Shown piece after piece: positions 410 through 7,104 of a stretch of 64,000 bases of DNA (its first letter is position 1; the number at the start of each line of letters is the position of its first letter). The stretch comes from Pseudomonadota bacterium (lineage in GTDB: Bacteria; Pseudomonadota; Alphaproteobacteria; Rhodobacterales; Rhodobacteraceae): positions 248,001-312,000 of the forward strand of contig JAIUPC010000012.1 in the NCBI GenBank assembly GCA_020161655.1, written 5' to 3'. The notes beneath the pieces are model-generated. The model did not search any database. It was not told the DNA's origin and saw only the letters and a list, made by a program, of their open reading frames with translations. A program made the translations under genes and the position numbers.

Positions 410-880
410 TCACCAGAAGTCCTTGTGACCGCTGACGATCTCCTGTTCGAGGTCCGGGAACGGCCCCCGGACCTCGACCCGGCGCCGCCCTGCCGCGAAA
501 ACCTGATGGCAGCTCAGATCGAGGGTCAGATTTTCGGGATTCTCCCCGGTCAGTTCCGCGAGACGCCTCTCGCTCAGCCCGTAGACCACGGCACCGATGC
601 CGGCCCAGTAGCAGGCCCCGGCGCACATGCAGCAGGGCTCTACCGAGGTCACAAGCGTGCATCGTTCGAGAAAGGCCGGATCGTAGAGTTGCGCGGCGGC
701 GCGGGCGACGTTCGCCTCGGCGTGGCCGACGCCGCGATCCTGCGCGTAGGTGTTGCCCGACGAAAGGAGCACGTCACCCTCCGGCCCGACGAGAAGCGCC
801 CCGAAGGGATGGTTGCCACTGGCCCGGCTCTTGGCGGCAATTTCAACGGCAAGACGCAGATACCTGGTATCGTTGCTCAT
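410..880 (-). CDS. Nucleoside/cytidine deaminase family protein (zinc-dependent)
   Basis: A 156-residue protein of the cytidine deaminase-like fold. Residues 53-55 (HAE) give the zinc-binding His and the proton-shuttling Glu, and P82-C83-x-x-C86 gives the two cysteine zinc ligands. The length fits guanine deaminase, tRNA adenosine deaminase and related free-base deaminases. It lacks the obvious tRNA-binding features of TadA, so a free base or nucleoside substrate is more likely. It ends a minus-strand operon with an aminobutyraldehyde-type dehydrogenase and a polyamine-type ABC transporter, so it may act on an imported amine or N-heterocycle. The exact substrate cannot be read from sequence. 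Confidence 0.85.
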   Translation of the reverse strand: MSNDTRYLRLAVEIAAKSRASGNHPFGALLVGPEGDVLLSSGNTYAQDRGVGHAEANVARAAAQLYDPAFLERCTLVTSVEPCCMCAGACYWAGIGAVVYGLSERRLAELTGENPENLTLDLSCHQVFAAGRRRVEVRGPFPDLEQEIVSGHKDFW

Positions 881-928: not shown

Positions 929-2362
929 TCACCCGTGCTTCACCATCACATGCCGCACGACAGTATAGTCCTCCAGCGCGTACATCGACATGTCCTTGCC
1001 GTAGCCCGATTGCTTCAGCCCGCCATGCGGCATCTCGTTGACCAGCATGAAGTGGGTGTTGATCCAGGTGCAGCCGTAGCGGAGCCTTGCCGCGGTCGCC
1101 ATCGCCCGGCCAACATCCCTGGTCCAGACCGAGGACGCGAGGCCGTAGTCGCTGTCATTGGCCCAGCCCACGGCCTCATCCACGTCCGAGAAGGGCGTGA
1201 TGGAGACCACCGGGCCGAAGACCTCGCGCCGGACGATCTCGTCGTCCTGCCTTGCGCCGGCGATGACCGTCGGGCGGTAGTAGAAGCCCTGATCCATCAC
1301 CTGGCCGCCGGTCGTGACCTCGACATGGTTGAGTTCCCGCGCCCGGTTGACGAAGGAGGCGACGCGGTCGCGCTGGCGGAGGCTGATGAGCGGGCCGATC
1401 TCGTTCAAGCTGTCATCGGCATTGGCAAGGCCGATGGTGGAAACGGCGGCGGTCAAGTCGGCGACAAGCTTGTCGTAGACCTTCCTGCCGGCATAGATCC
1501 GGCAGGCGGCGGTGCAGTCCTGCCCGGCGTTGTAATAGCCGAAGGCGCGCAGCCCCTCGACCACCTCACCGACATCGGCATCGTCGAAGACCACGACCGG
1601 GGCCTTGCCGCCCAGCTCCAGATGCGTGCGCTTCACCGTCTTCGCGGCGGCATCGAGCATCTTCCGCCCCGTGGCCACATCGCCGGTCAGGGAAATCATG
1701 TCGACGCCGGGATGGTTGATGAGATAGCTGCCGACCGTCTGGCCGCGCCCGGCGATGACGCTGACGACGCCTTCGGGGAGTTCCTCGGCCAGGATATGCG
1801 CCATCTTGAGCGCGGTCAGCGGCGTCTGTTCGGACGGCTTGAAGACGACCGTGTTGCCGCCGCCGATGGCCGGGGCGAGCTTCCAGGCCATCATCATCAG
1901 GGGATAGTTCCAGGGGGCGATGGAAGCGATGACGCCGATCGCGTCGCGGCGGATCATCGAGGTATGGCCGGCAAGGTATTCGCCGGCAAGCTGACCATGC
2001 TGGGTCCGGACCGCGCCGGCGAAGAAGCGGTAGCAATCGACGATGGCGGGGATCTCATCGTTCCGGGCAGCGCCGAGGGGCTTGCCGCAGTTCAAAGCCT
2101 CAAGGGCGGCGAAGGCATCCGCTTCGGCCTCAACCCGGTCGGCGATCCTGAGAAGCGCGGCCGAACGCTCGCCGGGGGTCGTCCGCGACCATGTCTCGAA
2201 CGCCTTCCGCGCGGCGGCCACGGCCTTGTCGACCTGCGCGGTCGACGCCTCGGGCACGTCGAGGATCAGGGCGCCGGTGCGCGGGTTCAGGACAGGCTCA
2301 GGCGTTTCCTGCCCCGCCTGGAACTCGGCGCCGATCAGAAGCGCGGTGTTGAACTTGGTCAT
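929..2362 (-). CDS. patD: Gamma-aminobutyraldehyde dehydrogenase-type aldehyde dehydrogenase
   Basis: A 477-residue NAD(P)-dependent aldehyde dehydrogenase. The catalytic pair is visible: E249 in LELGGK and C283 in the [11 protein letters not shown] motif. The [15 protein letters not shown] variant is typical of gamma-aminobutyraldehyde (PatD/YdcW) and related aminoaldehyde dehydrogenases, which oxidise the aldehyde made from putrescine to GABA. A good ribosome site (GAGGGAG) precedes the ATG, and the gene starts 12 bases after the permease stop. Its place behind a YdcSTUV-like transporter supports polyamine catabolism. Betaine or other aminoaldehyde substrates remain possible. Confidence 0.88.
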
Positions 2363-2373
2363 GGGTTACTCCC

Positions 2374-3180
2374 TCATTTTCCGCCGCCGGCGGTCTGGTC
2401 GCCGTCGCGGGTCAGGTAATAGGCGCAAAGGATGGGCAGGAACGTCACCATGAAGACCACGATGGCCACGACATTGGTGACGGGCCGCTGGCGCGGGCGT
2501 ACAAGTTCCTGCAGCATCCAGATCGGCAGGGTGGACTGCTGGCCCGCCGTGAAGGTGGTCACGATCACCTCGTCGAAGCTCAGGGCGAAGGCGAGCATTC
2601 CGCCGGCCAGAAGCGCGGAGCCGAGGTTGGGTAGAAGCACATGGCGGAAGGTCTGGAAGCCGTTGGCGCCAAGGTCGGAGGACGCCTCCAGAATGCCGCC
2701 CGAGATGCGGCGGAAGCGGGCGACGGCGTTGTTGTAGACGATGACGATGCAGAAGGTCGCGTGGCCGAGGATGATGGTCCAGACCGAATAGGGAATGTCC
2801 ATCACCGAGAAGGCCGAGCGGAGCGCCATGCCGGTGATGACGCCGGGAAGTGCTATGGGCAGCAGGATCAGGAGCGAGATCTGCTCGCGCCCGAAGAACT
2901 TCGTCCGTGACATGGCGGCGGAAACGAGCGTGCCGAGGATGATGGCGACCACGGTGGCGATGGCCGCAACCTCCAGCGACAGGATCAGCGGCGGCCAGAT
3001 GTCGTCCCGGCCCCAGGCGACGCCGAACCATTTCAGCGTCAGGCCCGGCGGCGGGAACTGGTAGCTCTTTTCCTCGGTGGTGAAGGCATAGAGGAAGATC
3101 AGGAGGATCGGCAGGTGCAGGAACAGCAAGCCGGTGATCGCGGCGATCTTCAGGCCTAGCGAGGCGCGGTCAGAGTGCAT
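2374..3180 (-). CDS. ABC transporter permease, polyamine type (PotC/YdcV-like)
   Basis: A 268-residue inner membrane permease with about six hydrophobic segments and the cytoplasmic EAA loop ([20 protein letters not shown]) that docks onto the ATPase. I place the start at the ATG at 3180 (MHSDRASLG). This ATG lies inside an 11-base sequence, ATGCACTCTGA, that also ends the other permease gene at 3777-3787, so it was probably the original overlapping start before a foreign gene was inserted upstream. An in-frame ATG at 3195 exists but falls inside the inserted DNA. The permease works with the upstream permease, the ATPase and the binding protein for putrescine- or spermidine-like uptake. Confidence 0.87.
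3170..3180. repeat. 11-base direct repeat, copy 2 (right junction of inserted gene)
   Basis: The plus strand reads TCAGAGTGCAT (ATGCACTCTGA on the coding strand), identical to 3777-3787. This copy holds the TGA stop of the inserted gene (AAT GCA CTC TGA) and, in another frame, the ATG start of the downstream permease (ATG CAC TCT GAC). Bases on either side of the two copies differ, so the repeat is exactly 11 bases. Confidence 0.9.
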
Positions 3181-3787
3181 TCTTAAGCCATCCAACTTCT
3201 GCGTTTCCTTCTGCCAAGCGTCTCTTCGTGCTCTCTCTCATTTCCTCCGCTACTAGGTCGACATCTTCTTGTTTTAACTCTGGCAAGCCAATGCTACGCA
3301 GGAAGCTATGCGTAGCTGCTTCAACCAAACTTTCTGTTTCCCTTATTTGGTGTCTAGCTTTCTGCAGTCGATGCATTAGCAGAGCGCAACCGCGCCTGTC
3401 GGAAAACAAATCGGCATCAACGCGCATAAAATGGTGCGCGAAGTAGTCTCGGAGTTTCTTGACCTCTTCAAGCGGACCACCTAGATTGCGAAATCTCGTG
3501 TGCTCTAGTATCGCTTTCTTCAAATTTCCAAAGGTTTGCTGTGTTGCATACTCAAAATTGCTGTCAATCAAGTCACTCCAGGTCGAAGCGTCTCTAACTT
3601 TCTGTTTTTTGAACTGTCGCGCAGATCTTGTAAGCATAACCAGATTAATCATCCCGTGCTCTAGAAGCGCTATTCCCATAAAGGTAAGGCCGAAGTGCGC
3701 GAATACTTCCTTTTCATAGACAATCCCCTCACCATCTAACTCCGGAAACTCTTCCAGGAGTTCTTTCAGATATGCCTCAGAGTGCAT
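3170..3787 (-). CDS. Inserted low-GC gene, hypothetical protein with HEPN-like R-x4-H motif
   Basis: A 205-residue predicted soluble helical protein, clearly foreign in base composition: AT-rich codons such as AGA, TTA and CTA amid very GC-rich neighbours. It sits between the two permease genes of the polyamine-type operon. It starts at the ATG of one copy of the 11-base repeat ATGCACTCTGA (3777-3787) and stops at the TGA of the second copy (3170-3180). R113 and H118 in [10 protein letters not shown] form an R-x4-H motif like that of HEPN-domain RNases, which are common in toxins and defence proteins. The motif match is by eye, and the rest of the protein is not recognised. No transposase or terminal inverted repeat is visible in the insert. 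Real gene: likely. Function: unknown. Confidence 0.75.
3777..3787. repeat. 11-base direct repeat, copy 1 (left junction of inserted gene)
   Basis: The plus strand reads TCAGAGTGCAT. On the coding strand it contains the stop of the upstream permease (GAT GCA CTC TGA) and, in another frame, the ATG start of the inserted gene (ATG CAC TCT GAG). With the copy at 3170-3180 it brackets the low-GC insert like a target-site duplication or a recombination scar. Confidence 0.9.
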
Positions 3788-4721
3788 CGAAGGCCCCCAT
3801 GCGCTTGGCGATGGTCAGGTAGATGAGCATGATGATGATGGGCACGACCGCGAAGGCGGCGGCCAAGGGGATGTTCCCCGCCGTCCCCTGCAACTGGTAG
3901 ACCGCAAGCCCGATGAAGCGGGCCGAGGTGCCGATGATCTGCGGGATGATGTAGTCGCCCAAGGTGAGCGAGAAGGTGAAGATCGACCCGGCGATGACAC
4001 CCGGCAGGGCCAAGGGCAGGATCACGGTGCGGAAGGTCTGCCCCCCGCTCGCGCCAAGGTCGGCCGCCGCCTCCAGCATCGACCCCGGCACGCGTTCCAG
4101 CGAGGCCTGCATAGGCAGGATCATGTAAGGCAGCCAGATATAGACGAAGACGATGAAGGTCCCCATCGGCGAGGTCGACAGGGAATTGCCCCCGACCCCC
4201 GGCAGCGCCAGCACGGCATCAAGGAAGAACCCCATGCCGGCGCCCTCGGCCGCCCAGGTCACGATGCCTTCCTTCGCGAGGATCAGCTTCCAGGCGTAGA
4301 CCTTGACGAGGTAGGAGGACCAGAGGGGCAGCATGACGCCGAGGTAGAAAAGCGCCTTCCAGCGGCCCTTCGCATAGCGGGCGGCGAAATAGGCGATCGG
4401 GAAGGCGATCACCGCGCAGGCGAGCGTCACCAGCGCCGACATGAGAAGCGTCCTGACGATGATGTCGAGGTTCTGCGCCCGGAACAGTTCGGCATAGGTC
4501 TTGAGGGTGAATTCCTCTTTCACCACGCCGGAAAACTCGTCGATGGAATAGAAGCTTTGCAGGAGAAGCGCCGCGAGCGAACCGAGGTAGACCACGCCAA
4601 GCCAGAGGAGCGGCAGGGCGAGCAAGAGCCCGAGAAAAGCTTTGGGATGGCGCCAGAGCGCGGCGCTGATCCGGTCGGCAAGGCCCCTGTCGGGCAGGAT
4701 GGCGGGGGCGTCGCGCATCAC
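3777..4721 (-). CDS. ABC transporter permease, polyamine type (PotB/YdcU-like)
   Basis: A 314-residue inner membrane permease with multiple hydrophobic segments and an EAA loop ([20 protein letters not shown]). It pairs with the permease at 2374-3180 to form the membrane channel of a binding-protein-dependent importer. Its ATG overlaps the ATPase stop codon by four bases, so the genes are translationally coupled. Its last codons (GAT GCA CTC TGA) fall in the 11-base repeat described above, so the downstream insertion left this gene intact. Family placement (spermidine/putrescine type) is firm; the exact substrate is inferred from the adjacent dehydrogenase. Confidence 0.88.
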
Positions 4722-5701
4722 GCCTCCATCACGTGAAGGGCGGTGGGGTCGAAGGCGATGGCGGCTTCGGCGCCCTCACCCGGCAGCGGTTGGCCGGCAG
4801 GCACAAGTGCCGCAACTTCCGTCCCGCCGATGTCGAGCACGACGCGGGAGCCGGCGCCAAGGTAGCGGATCGCCGTCACCCTGCCTCGGCCCTGCCCCTC
4901 AGCGCTCAGCCGCACGGCTTCCGGCCTGAGGCTCGCCCATTTCGCCGGGCCACCAAGGGCGCGGGTCAGGCCGGGCGGCAGGACGTTCGACGATCCGACG
5001 AAATCCGCGACGAAGCGGCTTTGCGGGCGGGCGTAGACATCCTCGGGCGTGCCGATCTGCGCGATCTTGCCGTCCGAAAACACCGCGAGCCGGTCGGCCA
5101 TGCTCAAGGCCTCATGCTGGTCGTGGGTGACGAAGACGAAGGTGATGCCAAGCCGTTTTTGCAGCGCCTTCAGCTCATCCTGCATCGCCTCGCGGAGTTT
5201 CAGGTCCAAGGCGCCAAGGGGTTCGTCGAGCAAGAGCACGCGCGGCTCATTCACCAACGCGCGGGCCAGCGCCACCCGTTGCCGCTGGCCGCCCGAAAGC
5301 TGGCCGGGCTTGCGGTCGCCGTAGCCCGGCAGCTTGACGAGGCCGAGCATTTCCTCGGCTTTCGCAAGCCGTTCCGCCTTGCCGATGCCCTTGACCATCA
5401 GCCCGTAGGCGACATTGTCGCGCACCGTCATATGCGGGAAAAGCGCGTAATCCTGAAAGACCGTGTTCACGTTGCGCTTGTTGGGCGGCACGTTGCTCAC
5501 GTCCTGCCCGAAAATGCTGATGGCGCCGCCGCTTGGTTGTTCAAACCCCGAGATGAGCCGCAGGCAGGTGGTCTTGCCCGACCCGGACGGCCCGAGCATG
5601 GCGAAGAACTCGCCCTCGGCAATGGCAAGGTTCACGCCATCGACGGCGCGGACATTGCCGAAGTGCCGGGTGACGTTCTGGAATTCGACGGCTGCGGTCA
5701 T
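4718..5701 (-). CDS. ABC transporter ATPase, polyamine type (PotA/YdcT-like)
   Basis: A 327-residue ATPase that powers the importer at the inner membrane. It shows Walker A (GPSGSGKTT, about residues 37-45), signature [15 protein letters not shown], Walker [12 protein letters not shown] and the switch histidine in [10 protein letters not shown], followed by a C-terminal TOBE-like domain. I chose the ATG at 5701 ([10 protein letters not shown]), where family homology begins. A more upstream ATG at 5779 would start inside the perfect palindrome at 5757-5784 and add 26 residues unlike the family. It overlaps the next permease gene by four bases. Confidence 0.92.
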
Positions 5702-5756
5702 GGGAAAATCCGGTAAAGGGTACCCAAGCCGGCGAAACGTGTCCGCCGGCTGGAAG

Positions 5757-5784
5757 GTAGGATGGGCAATATTGCCCATCCTAC
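5757..5784. repeat. Perfect 28-base palindrome (REP-like; possible attenuator)
   Basis: The left arm GTAGGATGGGCAAT is followed directly by its exact reverse complement, giving a 14-base stem with no spacer. It lies in the 96-base gap between the binding-protein gene and the ATPase gene. Similar GTAGGxTGGGCA palindromes are, as I recall, dispersed repeats in many proteobacteria. In mRNA it would make a strong hairpin that could lower expression of the ATPase and permeases relative to the binding protein, or protect the upstream transcript 3' end. There is no T-tract typical of a terminator. Confidence 0.8.
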
Positions 5785-5797
5785 GGGGTCAGAGGGT

Positions 5798-6964
5798 TCA
5801 GCGCCCGCCGATCACGCCGATGTAGTCAGAGACCCAGCGGTAGTAGGGCACGCAGGCGCCCTCGCCTTGCGCGCAATTGGCAGTCGGCGTGGTCCAGAAG
5901 CGGATGCGGTCGAAGTCCTTCAACCCGTTCGCGTCACAGCCTTCCTGGGTCTGCATGCCGCGCTTGTCGGTGCAGGCGGCGGGGACCGAAGGCACCGCGC
6001 CGAACCAGACCGAAAGGTCGGATTGCAGGTTCGAGGACAGCTGGTGGTCGAACCACATGTAGGCGCAGTTCGGGTTCTTGCTGTCGGTGTGCAGCATCGT
6101 CGTGTCGGCCCAGCCGGTGGCGCCCTCTTCCGGAATCGTGCTGGCGACGGGCTGCTTGTCGCCCTGGAGAAGGTTGACCTGGAAGGGCCAGGAGCCGGAG
6201 GCCACGACGCCTTCGTTCTTGAAGTCGTCGATCTGGATGAAGGCATCGTGCCAGTAGCGCCCGACAAGCGTGCGCTGGACGCGCAGCAGGTCAAGCGCCG
6301 CCTTGTACTGATCCTCGTTCAGTTCATAGGGGCTGGTGATGCCAAGCTCGGGCTTGTGCGCCATCAGGTATTGCGCCGCGTCGGCGATGTGGATCGGCCC
6401 GTCATAGGCCTGCACCCTTCCGGCGTTGGGCTTGCCGTCGGGCAGGTCCATCGCCTCGAAGACCACGTTCCAGGACTTCGGCGCTTCCTTGAACACCTCG
6501 GTGTTGTACATGAGGACGTTCGGCCCCCACATGTAGGGTACGCCGTAATGCTTGCCGTCGACCGTATGCCAGGGCGCGTCCTGCAGGCGCGGGTCTACGG
6601 TGCCCCAGGACGGGATCAGCGCGGTGTTGATCTCCTGCACCTTGCCGCCGGCGATCAGCCTGAGCGAGGCGTCGCCGGATGCGGTCACCAGGTCGAAGCC
6701 GCCCTCGTTCATCAGCGCCACCATCTCGTCCGAGGTGTTGGCGGTCTTGACGCTGACCTTGCAGCCGGTCTTTTCCTCGAACTTCGTCACCCAGTCGAAG
6801 GCCGGGTCGGACTCGCCGCGCTCGACGTAGCCTGCCCAGGCCACGATCGACAGCGCCCCTTCGCCTGCGCCGATCTCGGTCATCTGCGCCAAGGCCGGGG
6901 TCATGCCGGTGGTGAGCGCCAGTGTCGCCGCTCCGGCAAATCTCATCCCGTTTCTAATCGTCAT
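5798..6964 (-). CDS. Extracellular substrate-binding protein of polyamine-type ABC transporter
   Basis: A 388-residue periplasmic binding protein. The ATG at 6964 (MTIRNGMRFAGAATLAL) has a strong ribosome site (AGGGGG) and starts a Sec signal peptide that ends near ALAQ. The mature part resembles the PotD/YdcS spermidine/putrescine-binding group (IVAWAGYVERG, GFDLVTASGDASLRL, YGVPYMWGPNVLMYN). It is the first transporter gene of the minus-strand operon and captures the substrate for the two permeases and ATPase. It probably needs the highest expression, consistent with the palindrome just downstream. Confidence 0.9.
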   Translation of the reverse strand: MTIRNGMRFAGAATLALTTGMTPALAQMTEIGAGEGALSIVAWAGYVERGESDPAFDWVTKFEEKTGCKVSVKTANTSDEMVALMNEGGFDLVTASGDASLRLIAGGKVQEINTALIPSWGTVDPRLQDAPWHTVDGKHYGVPYMWGPNVLMYNTEVFKEAPKSWNVVFEAMDLPDGKPNAGRVQAYDGPIHIADAAQYLMAHKPELGITSPYELNEDQYKAALDLLRVQRTLVGRYWHDAFIQIDDFKNEGVVASGSWPFQVNLLQGDKQPVASTIPEEGATGWADTTMLHTDSKNPNCAYMWFDHQLSSNLQSDLSVWFGAVPSVPAACTDKRGMQTQEGCDANGLKDFDRIRFWTTPTANCAQGEGACVPYYRWVSDYIGVIGGR

Positions 6965-7065
6965 GCTGAAGCCCCCTGTCTGGATTGCGCCATGCCGCAC
7001 GGGCGGCAGGCGGTGCCGGTCTTCCGGTCGCTGACATGCTGATCCGGGCGAGAAGCTTTCGCAAA

Positions 7066-7077
7066 CACAAAAATGTG
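7066..7077. promoter_or_regulatory. Candidate operator: CACA-AAAA-TGTG dyad upstream of binding-protein gene
   Basis: A 12-base interrupted dyad in the AT-richer gap between the LysR-type regulator gene and the binding-protein gene. LysR-type regulators usually bind T-N11-A dyads just upstream of their targets, so this is a reasonable place for an operator. The dyad is short and could be chance. Confidence 0.25.
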
Positions 7078-7104
7078 ATTGCATGTATCGGTTTTTCCGA
7101 AAGG

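Follow-up and report, generated by a model that had tools for sequence, protein, structure and literature searches.

Free-standing homing endonuclease genes occur between phage genes, and integrative elements use attachment sites in conserved gene ends; more generally, attachment sites often lie in conserved sequence. Ribonucleases of the HEPN superfamily, which include abortive infection, toxin-antitoxin and CRISPR effectors, are described as having an active site of the pattern Rx4-6H, in which the residue following the arginine is polar, mostly N, D or H (PMC3710099). Here, we describe gene X, a single gene that lies between two permease genes of a transporter operon in the window (the whole stretch of 64,000 nucleotides that was analysed), and whose two ends are formed by copies of an 11-base gene overlap. 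Our observations support this arrangement as real and unusual, and as site-exact in every carrier that we found.

Results

Anatomy of the locus

The window contains a predicted operon of the ydcSTUV-patD type with X between ydcU and ydcV, and the ydcS, ydcT, ydcU, X, ydcV and patD type genes all share one direction, being encoded on the minus strand (Table 1). The top NCBIfam match is PotB for the ydcU-like permease and PotC for the ydcV-like permease, each scoring under the cut-off of the respective model. After patD, a deaminase-like ORF (window 410-880, minus strand) shows a weak match to TadA, at 42.9 bits against a cut-off of 150.

Table 1. Features of the operon and of gene X, with positions in the window
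Feature	Position	Strand	Basis or role
ydcS-like substrate-binding protein	5798..7084	-	NCBIfam NF041888, 586 bits, E 2e-176, below the 725-bit cut-off
ydcT-like ABC ATPase	4718..5779	-	ORF and Pfam/NCBIfam profile searches
ydcU-like (PotB-type) ABC permease	3777..4721	-	Pfam BPD_transp_1; orthologues in relatives
Repeat copy 1, ATGCACTCTGA	3777..3787	-	End of ydcU and start codon of X
Gene X, 205 aa, putative HEPN-type ribonuclease	3170..3787	-	ORF; R113-D-Y-F-A-H118 motif
Unique insert, 596 bp, GC 0.465	3181..3776	-	Between the repeat copies
Repeat copy 2, ATGCACTCTGA	3170..3180	-	End of X and start codon of ydcV
ydcV-like (PotC-type) ABC permease, downstream of X	2374..3180	-	Pfam BPD_transp_1
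patD-like aminobutyraldehyde dehydrogenase, after ydcV	929..2362	-	NCBIfam NF010000, 784 bits, cut-off 615 exceeded

An earlier note on this DNA had described an 11-base duplication that frames X, and its coordinates proved right to the base: ATGCACTCTGA occurs only twice in the 64 kb, both times on the minus strand, and two copies appeared in none of 100 dinucleotide shuffles. Its account of what each copy does also holds when the codons are read directly. The upstream permease closes with GAT GCA CTC TGA at 3777, its last 11 bases being copy 1, which at the same time starts X; copy 2 ends X and opens the downstream permease (ATG CAC TCT GAC, at 3180). The repeat is confined to these 11 bp with no extension on either side, the starts of X and ydcV are spaced by 607 bp, and the 596 bp of unique insert contain neither the start codon nor the stop codon of X, both of which lie within the repeats. 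The insert is low in GC, as had been claimed (46.5%, against 65% in the flanks of the window). Three further families of short direct repeats (10-16 nt) were found within the same 651 bp (3150-3800); hence, a short repeat alone means little here, and it is the exact placement at both gene junctions that counts.

The reported lack of a transposase and of terminal inverted repeats was confirmed by profile and repeat searches. There are no inverted-repeat pairs in 3150-3800, no terminal inverted repeat was found (inverted matches between the 80-bp ends reach 6 bp at most in the window, and the longest ones range from 5 to 7 bp over the six carriers), no transposase was matched in Pfam or NCBIfam, and a single ORF occupies the whole insert. 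With inverted repeats and transposase both absent, we rejected a transposon; an RNA element was likewise rejected, as no Rfam match reached the gathering threshold over 2300-4900.

The empty site in relatives and in E. coli

The earlier note had reasoned that removal of one copy together with the insert restores an 11-base overlap, and precisely this empty junction can be read in close relatives. In 18 of 20 close orthologous loci (L003-L022), ydcU and ydcV overlap by 11 bp with nothing between them, the two others having a spacer of ~110 bp (L017) and a short non-overlapping junction (L022), and X is present in none of the 20. The junction is empty in the nearest relative (G008), the ydcU protein of which is 97% identical, and ATGCACTCTGA is the empty overlap in most relatives of the same genus. 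X was found in one of 22 genomes of the window's genus and in one of 394 genomes of its family, in each case the window's own, where it is a single copy; this distribution, along with the low GC, agrees with the earlier description of the gene as foreign.

In the type strain of E. coli, the ydcU/ydcV overlap is annotated as 11 nt and has the same ATGCACTCTGA (L150, 2221-2231). A stretch of 81 bp across the overlap was matched over at least 80% of its length, at one place, in 5348 of 5426 E. coli genomes, and the 20 matches listed were all single unbroken pieces. Since the 81-bp match would be broken up by an insert as long as X, such inserts are excluded in the 5348 genomes, and shorter ones only in the 20 listed. 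The ydcU/ydcV overlap is, to judge from these comparisons of sequence, old and deeply conserved. The sharing of ATGCACTCTGA by the E. coli type strain and the window is in itself an unusually deep conservation of an overlap at the DNA level.

Six carriers with one insertion site

Six carriers were found in total, and in all six X lies at the ydcU/ydcV junction with the overlap duplicated. Besides the window, a scan of genome contigs returned four homologues, all four at this junction, from a Rhizobiaceae MAG (L032), Shinella curvata (L033), a Rhizobiales isolate (L034) and Pararhizobium antarcticum (L035), whose X proteins are 35-37% identical to that of the window; the scan used peptides of the window protein only, and diverged carriers may therefore be missed. 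The remaining carrier, L137 (G1199), was found when 26 genomes from the genus of L035 were searched. In L032-L035, ATGCGCTCTGA stands at both ends of X, save for the first copy in L032, which is off by one base and makes L032 the exception to the exact identity of both copies seen in five of the six carriers. Both copies are of the A variant in the window, as in most of its relatives, and of the G variant in the Rhizobiaceae carriers; such a match to the local lineage type is expected if the target was duplicated or if the donor belonged to the same group. The body of X between the copies measures 593-597 bp, and its GC is 0.45-0.48 across carriers, against 0.61-0.68 in the flanks. In L137 as assembled, the stop codon of X is a TAA that directly abuts the second copy, a shift of one base relative to the other carriers. 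The ydcV of L137 is broken by frameshifts, and these, as well as the shifted 3' end of X, are possibly assembly errors.

Wider genome samples, which overlap with one another, were searched as well. One of seven genomes of the L034 genus has X and six are empty; in the genus of L032, a close ydcU was found in 11 of 57 genomes, one of these with X and ten with the overlap. The family of Shinella (394 genomes) yielded five profile matches, two of them of the junction type (L033, L034), and the order search (257 genomes) the X of L033 and one distant homologue. In the class search (385 genomes), the window's own X was the only one of the junction type, and four distant homologues were found besides. 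Altogether, eight distant homologues were obtained; the order search contributed one of them, and the searches of the class and of the Rhizobiaceae the other seven. The earlier note had asked whether homologues lie at overlapping junctions with duplications, which is true of the six carriers and untrue of the distant homologues L036-L039, whose ends share no repeat longer than 7-8 bp (these are the four covered by the end-repeat test, of the eight that also include L044-L046 and L149). Its wider suggestion of a cassette targeting overlapping junctions in general was not supported: all six carriers use one junction, ydcU/ydcV, and X as a general overlap-targeting gene was rejected on the ends of L036-L039. 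The two patterns that it had named as contrary to its reading, namely homologues at the same place in all relatives with vertical inheritance and normal GC, and absence of the repeat in close relatives carrying the gene, were not encountered in that form.

A tblastn search of phages with the L033 protein gave no match, and a profile scan of viral contigs gave 23 candidate stretches, none of them a relative; on these grounds, a phage-borne gene was rejected. Spread by plasmids was rejected as well, the matches being only partial and weak (11 records for the L033 protein, one for the window protein).

Other junction states and the flanks of carriers

We read 90 Rhizobiaceae loci (L047-L136), from 170 genomes with a close ydcU, and found 79 with the empty overlap, two with X and nine with spacers of ~150-216 bp (L087, L095, L096, L101, L112, L119, L121, L122 and L123); no other gene-sized insertion was present at the junction among the 90. 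The nine spacers are palindrome-rich, belong to several sequence types and have junction-like sequence at both ends: exact ATGCGCTCTGA occurs at the ydcV end in seven of the nine, and at the ydcU end in none, with a near-match there in all nine. Both ends have to remain wherever an insertion spares the two permeases, which in part forces the junction to be duplicated. Hence, duplicated junction-like ends are partly what selection would leave after any tolerated insertion, but the two copies are exactly alike in five of the six X carriers.

Identity between the window and G008, taken per 100 bp, was 95, 93 and 94% upstream and 91, 92 and 90% downstream. As a control for the flanks, 107 empty loci were analysed in 50-bp steps, with pairs of these loci as the baseline, which for the first 50 bp downstream had a mean of 67% over 2007 pairs. 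Over the same 50 bp, carriers were 70-94% identical to their nearest empty loci (L049 being taken for L033), so they lie at or above the baseline just downstream, and most do likewise upstream. For L032, ~72% was obtained in a first comparison, owing to comparison loci that were too distant and to a ydcV start that is variable in general, and 80% against its nearest empty locus; L137 was comparable downstream over ~100-150 bp only, because of its frameshifts. In L033, the bases directly after the second copy are those of the empty relative L049. At the 50-bp resolution used, nothing in the carrier flanks pointed to a donor tract of more than some tens of bases, and they look native up to the repeat.

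Divergence of X and of its neighbours

In a ydcU tree of 123 rows, from which L022 was left out, the six carriers amount to six state changes, a count that gives no estimate of frequency because carriers were added on purpose. The carriers L035 and L137 are congeneric, and ydcU groups them with 98/97 support. Their ydcU genes are 90.5% identical at the nucleotide level (last 666 bases), while their X genes are 54% identical (44% for the proteins), and fourfold sites are equal at 54 of 69 positions in ydcU and 6 of 16 in X. Correspondingly, dS is 2.9 for X and 0.32 for ydcU, values that are rough given that dS in X is near saturation and that GC-rich third positions may lower that of ydcU. The same trend was observed between L033 and L034 (dS of 1.4 for X and 0.44 for ydcU), where X has a dN/dS of ~0.08, indicating that it has been kept functional.

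Topology alone is less telling: tests against an L035+L137 clade in the X tree gave p values of 0.144 (C20 protein mixture), 0.041 (LG) and 0.044 (DNA), which makes them borderline as evidence against a joint X of the two. The contrast in distance between X and its flanks is the stronger evidence for an independent arrival. Given flanks so similar and X genes so different in L035 and L137, X probably arrived more than once at exactly the ydcU/ydcV overlap.

The X protein

No credible family match to X was found in Pfam (window, L033, L035), NCBIfam (window), PADLOC (window, L035) or PHROGs (window, L033, L035); none of these four libraries gave a HEPN profile match, and Pfam gave no homing-endonuclease domain for the X of the window, L033 or L035. 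The motif RDYFAH is invariant in all six carriers, and R-x4-H is retained in the distant homologues L036-L039 (RDHLAH, RDFLSH, RRFLVH and RNYLCH), so that carriers and these homologues fit the HEPN pattern Rx4-6H (PMC3710099). The residue after the arginine is D in the six carriers and D, D, R and N in L036-L039, that is, N or D in nine of ten, which agrees with the polar residue described for the superfamily (PMC3710099).

An AlphaFold2 model of X, built from five sequences, is all helical with a mean pLDDT of 82. A Foldseek search with this model returned nothing at an E value of 0.001 or better (best E 0.32), and a profile search of solved structures gave two matches at E near 1, which are not credible. 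Among the three of the eight distant homologues whose neighbours were profiled, L045 lies by BrxL, L036 by a GajB-like UvrD helicase and L149 by a phage portal. The proximity of distant relatives to defence or phage genes suggests an undescribed family of defence-associated HEPN-like proteins. Considering the HEPN-like motif and these neighbours, a role as a ribonuclease in phage defence seems the likeliest; we take the protein to be a probable HEPN-type ribonuclease that serves in defence or conflict, the HEPN assignment being based on the motif and the helical prediction.

Discussion

We herein show the anatomy of the X locus, the empty sites of its relatives, the single site shared by the six carriers found, their native-looking flanks and the divergence of X between congeners. 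On balance, we consider it rather probable that independent horizontal transfers have brought X, as a single-gene cassette, to the 11-bp ydcU/ydcV overlap on more than one occasion; its recurrence at this site is probable on the strength of six carriers only. The chemistry of insertion, the excision and the function of X we infer. Each arrival would leave the ydcU of the recipient, 11 bp, an X body of 593-597 bp, 11 bp and the ydcV of the recipient. The left copy would complete ydcU and supply the start codon of X, and the right copy would supply its stop (or adjoin it, given the TAA of L137 as assembled) and start ydcV. As the start and stop codons lie in the overlap copies, translation could pass through ydcU, X and ydcV by stop/start overlap.

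Most likely, DNA from an X-carrying genome would recombine at the 11 identical bases and the conserved end of ydcU, and selection would retain those products in which the operon is kept; we favour homology because no enzyme comes with X. An identity of only 11 bp recombines inefficiently, however, and a crossover in long flanks should leave a donor tract, so that its absence counts against this route, while the one-base mismatch of the L032 copies and the ends of the spacers count against the cassette reading as a whole. Neither a donor nor a circle was seen, nor any conversion of an empty into a full site. If the two copies recombined with each other, X would be lost and the exact empty overlap would return, and such deletions could explain the patchy distribution of X; for some carriers, long persistence with many losses may apply.

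A recombinase supplied in trans, for which X plus one 11-mer would be a minimal non-autonomous element and the overlap the attachment core, would account for the one and the same site in all six carriers, for native-looking flanks with sharp boundaries, for the conserved target and for repeat copies of the variant that is usual in each lineage (A for the window and G for the carriers in the Rhizobiaceae). Nevertheless, neither the insert nor the six neighbouring genes profiled encode a recombinase, terminal inverted repeats are absent and the window's own genome has a single copy of X, and we regard this explanation as possible but doubtful. We think it improbable that X entered only once, long ago, and has since been passed on vertically, with many losses through deletions between the 11-bp repeats. 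The identical site in every carrier and the native flanks would follow automatically, precise loss between direct repeats is mechanically easy, and in one of the three clade tests a shared ancestry of the L035 and L137 genes is not rejected; yet X is missing from 21 of the 22 genomes of the window's genus, from six of seven in that of L034 and from ten of the 11 ydcU-bearing genomes in that of L032, its synonymous divergence is far above that of the flanks, and its GC is still low in each carrier.

The spacers bear on a further possibility, that of unrelated illegitimate insertions kept only where both permeases survived, with no site preference beyond selection. Duplicated ends are forced whenever both genes are kept, and similar ends are found on palindrome-rich spacers in nine of 90 operons; but the same protein family occupies the same junction every time, none of the four distant homologues tested is flanked by such repeats, and the 90 surveyed loci have no other gene-sized insertion, which leaves this explanation quite improbable. 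An artefact of assembly or annotation, which the ydcV frameshifts of L137 might bring to mind, can practically be discounted in view of six genomes, including four with named records of their own, and of an open frame with dN/dS of ~0.08 between L033 and L034.

If X is indeed such a horizontally acquired cassette, a conserved stop/start overlap would be a place where a defence-type gene has landed repeatedly, and duplication of the overlap would be what allows the gene into an operon that stays intact. This would be a concrete case of the entry of single genes into operons, and other conserved overlaps may hold cassettes of the same anatomy. We only tentatively put forward that X is a minimal mobile element in its own right, a gene without a start, a stop or a recombinase of its own, which enters and duplicates one overlap and moves between alphaproteobacteria. 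Were this true, the element would borrow its start, its stop and its translational coupling from the target, and the host operon would stay working. We found no description of such a cassette in the open-access literature that we searched.

Among known systems, homing endonuclease genes resemble X as single genes, patchily distributed, that recur at one conserved junction and keep its neighbours, and recurrent insertion of X at one conserved site is what we found, to the extent that the borderline clade tests allow; unlike them, X has no such Pfam domain, resides in a bacterial operon and has its junction duplicated. X shares with integrative elements the entry into conserved sequence and a short direct repeat at both ends, and differs from them in being one gene of ~600 bp without an integrase. 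With insertion sequences, non-autonomous elements and mobile insertion cassettes, it has in common a short direct repeat resembling a target-site duplication, the 11 bp being duplicated at X and single in the empty site; in contrast to these, it has no terminal inverted repeats or transposase, always occupies one site and takes its start and stop codons from the duplicated target. The likeness to HEPN superfamily ribonucleases lies in R-x4-H and the polar residue after the arginine (PMC3710099), and in an all-helical prediction. Unlike these enzymes, X has no profile match in the libraries tried and no fold match, and unlike HEPN systems it occurs as a lone gene, no partner being visible, and is fixed within an operon for transport. 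The site-specific or homology-guided insertion of a defence-type gene is an already known kind of event, and we regard X as a variant of it.
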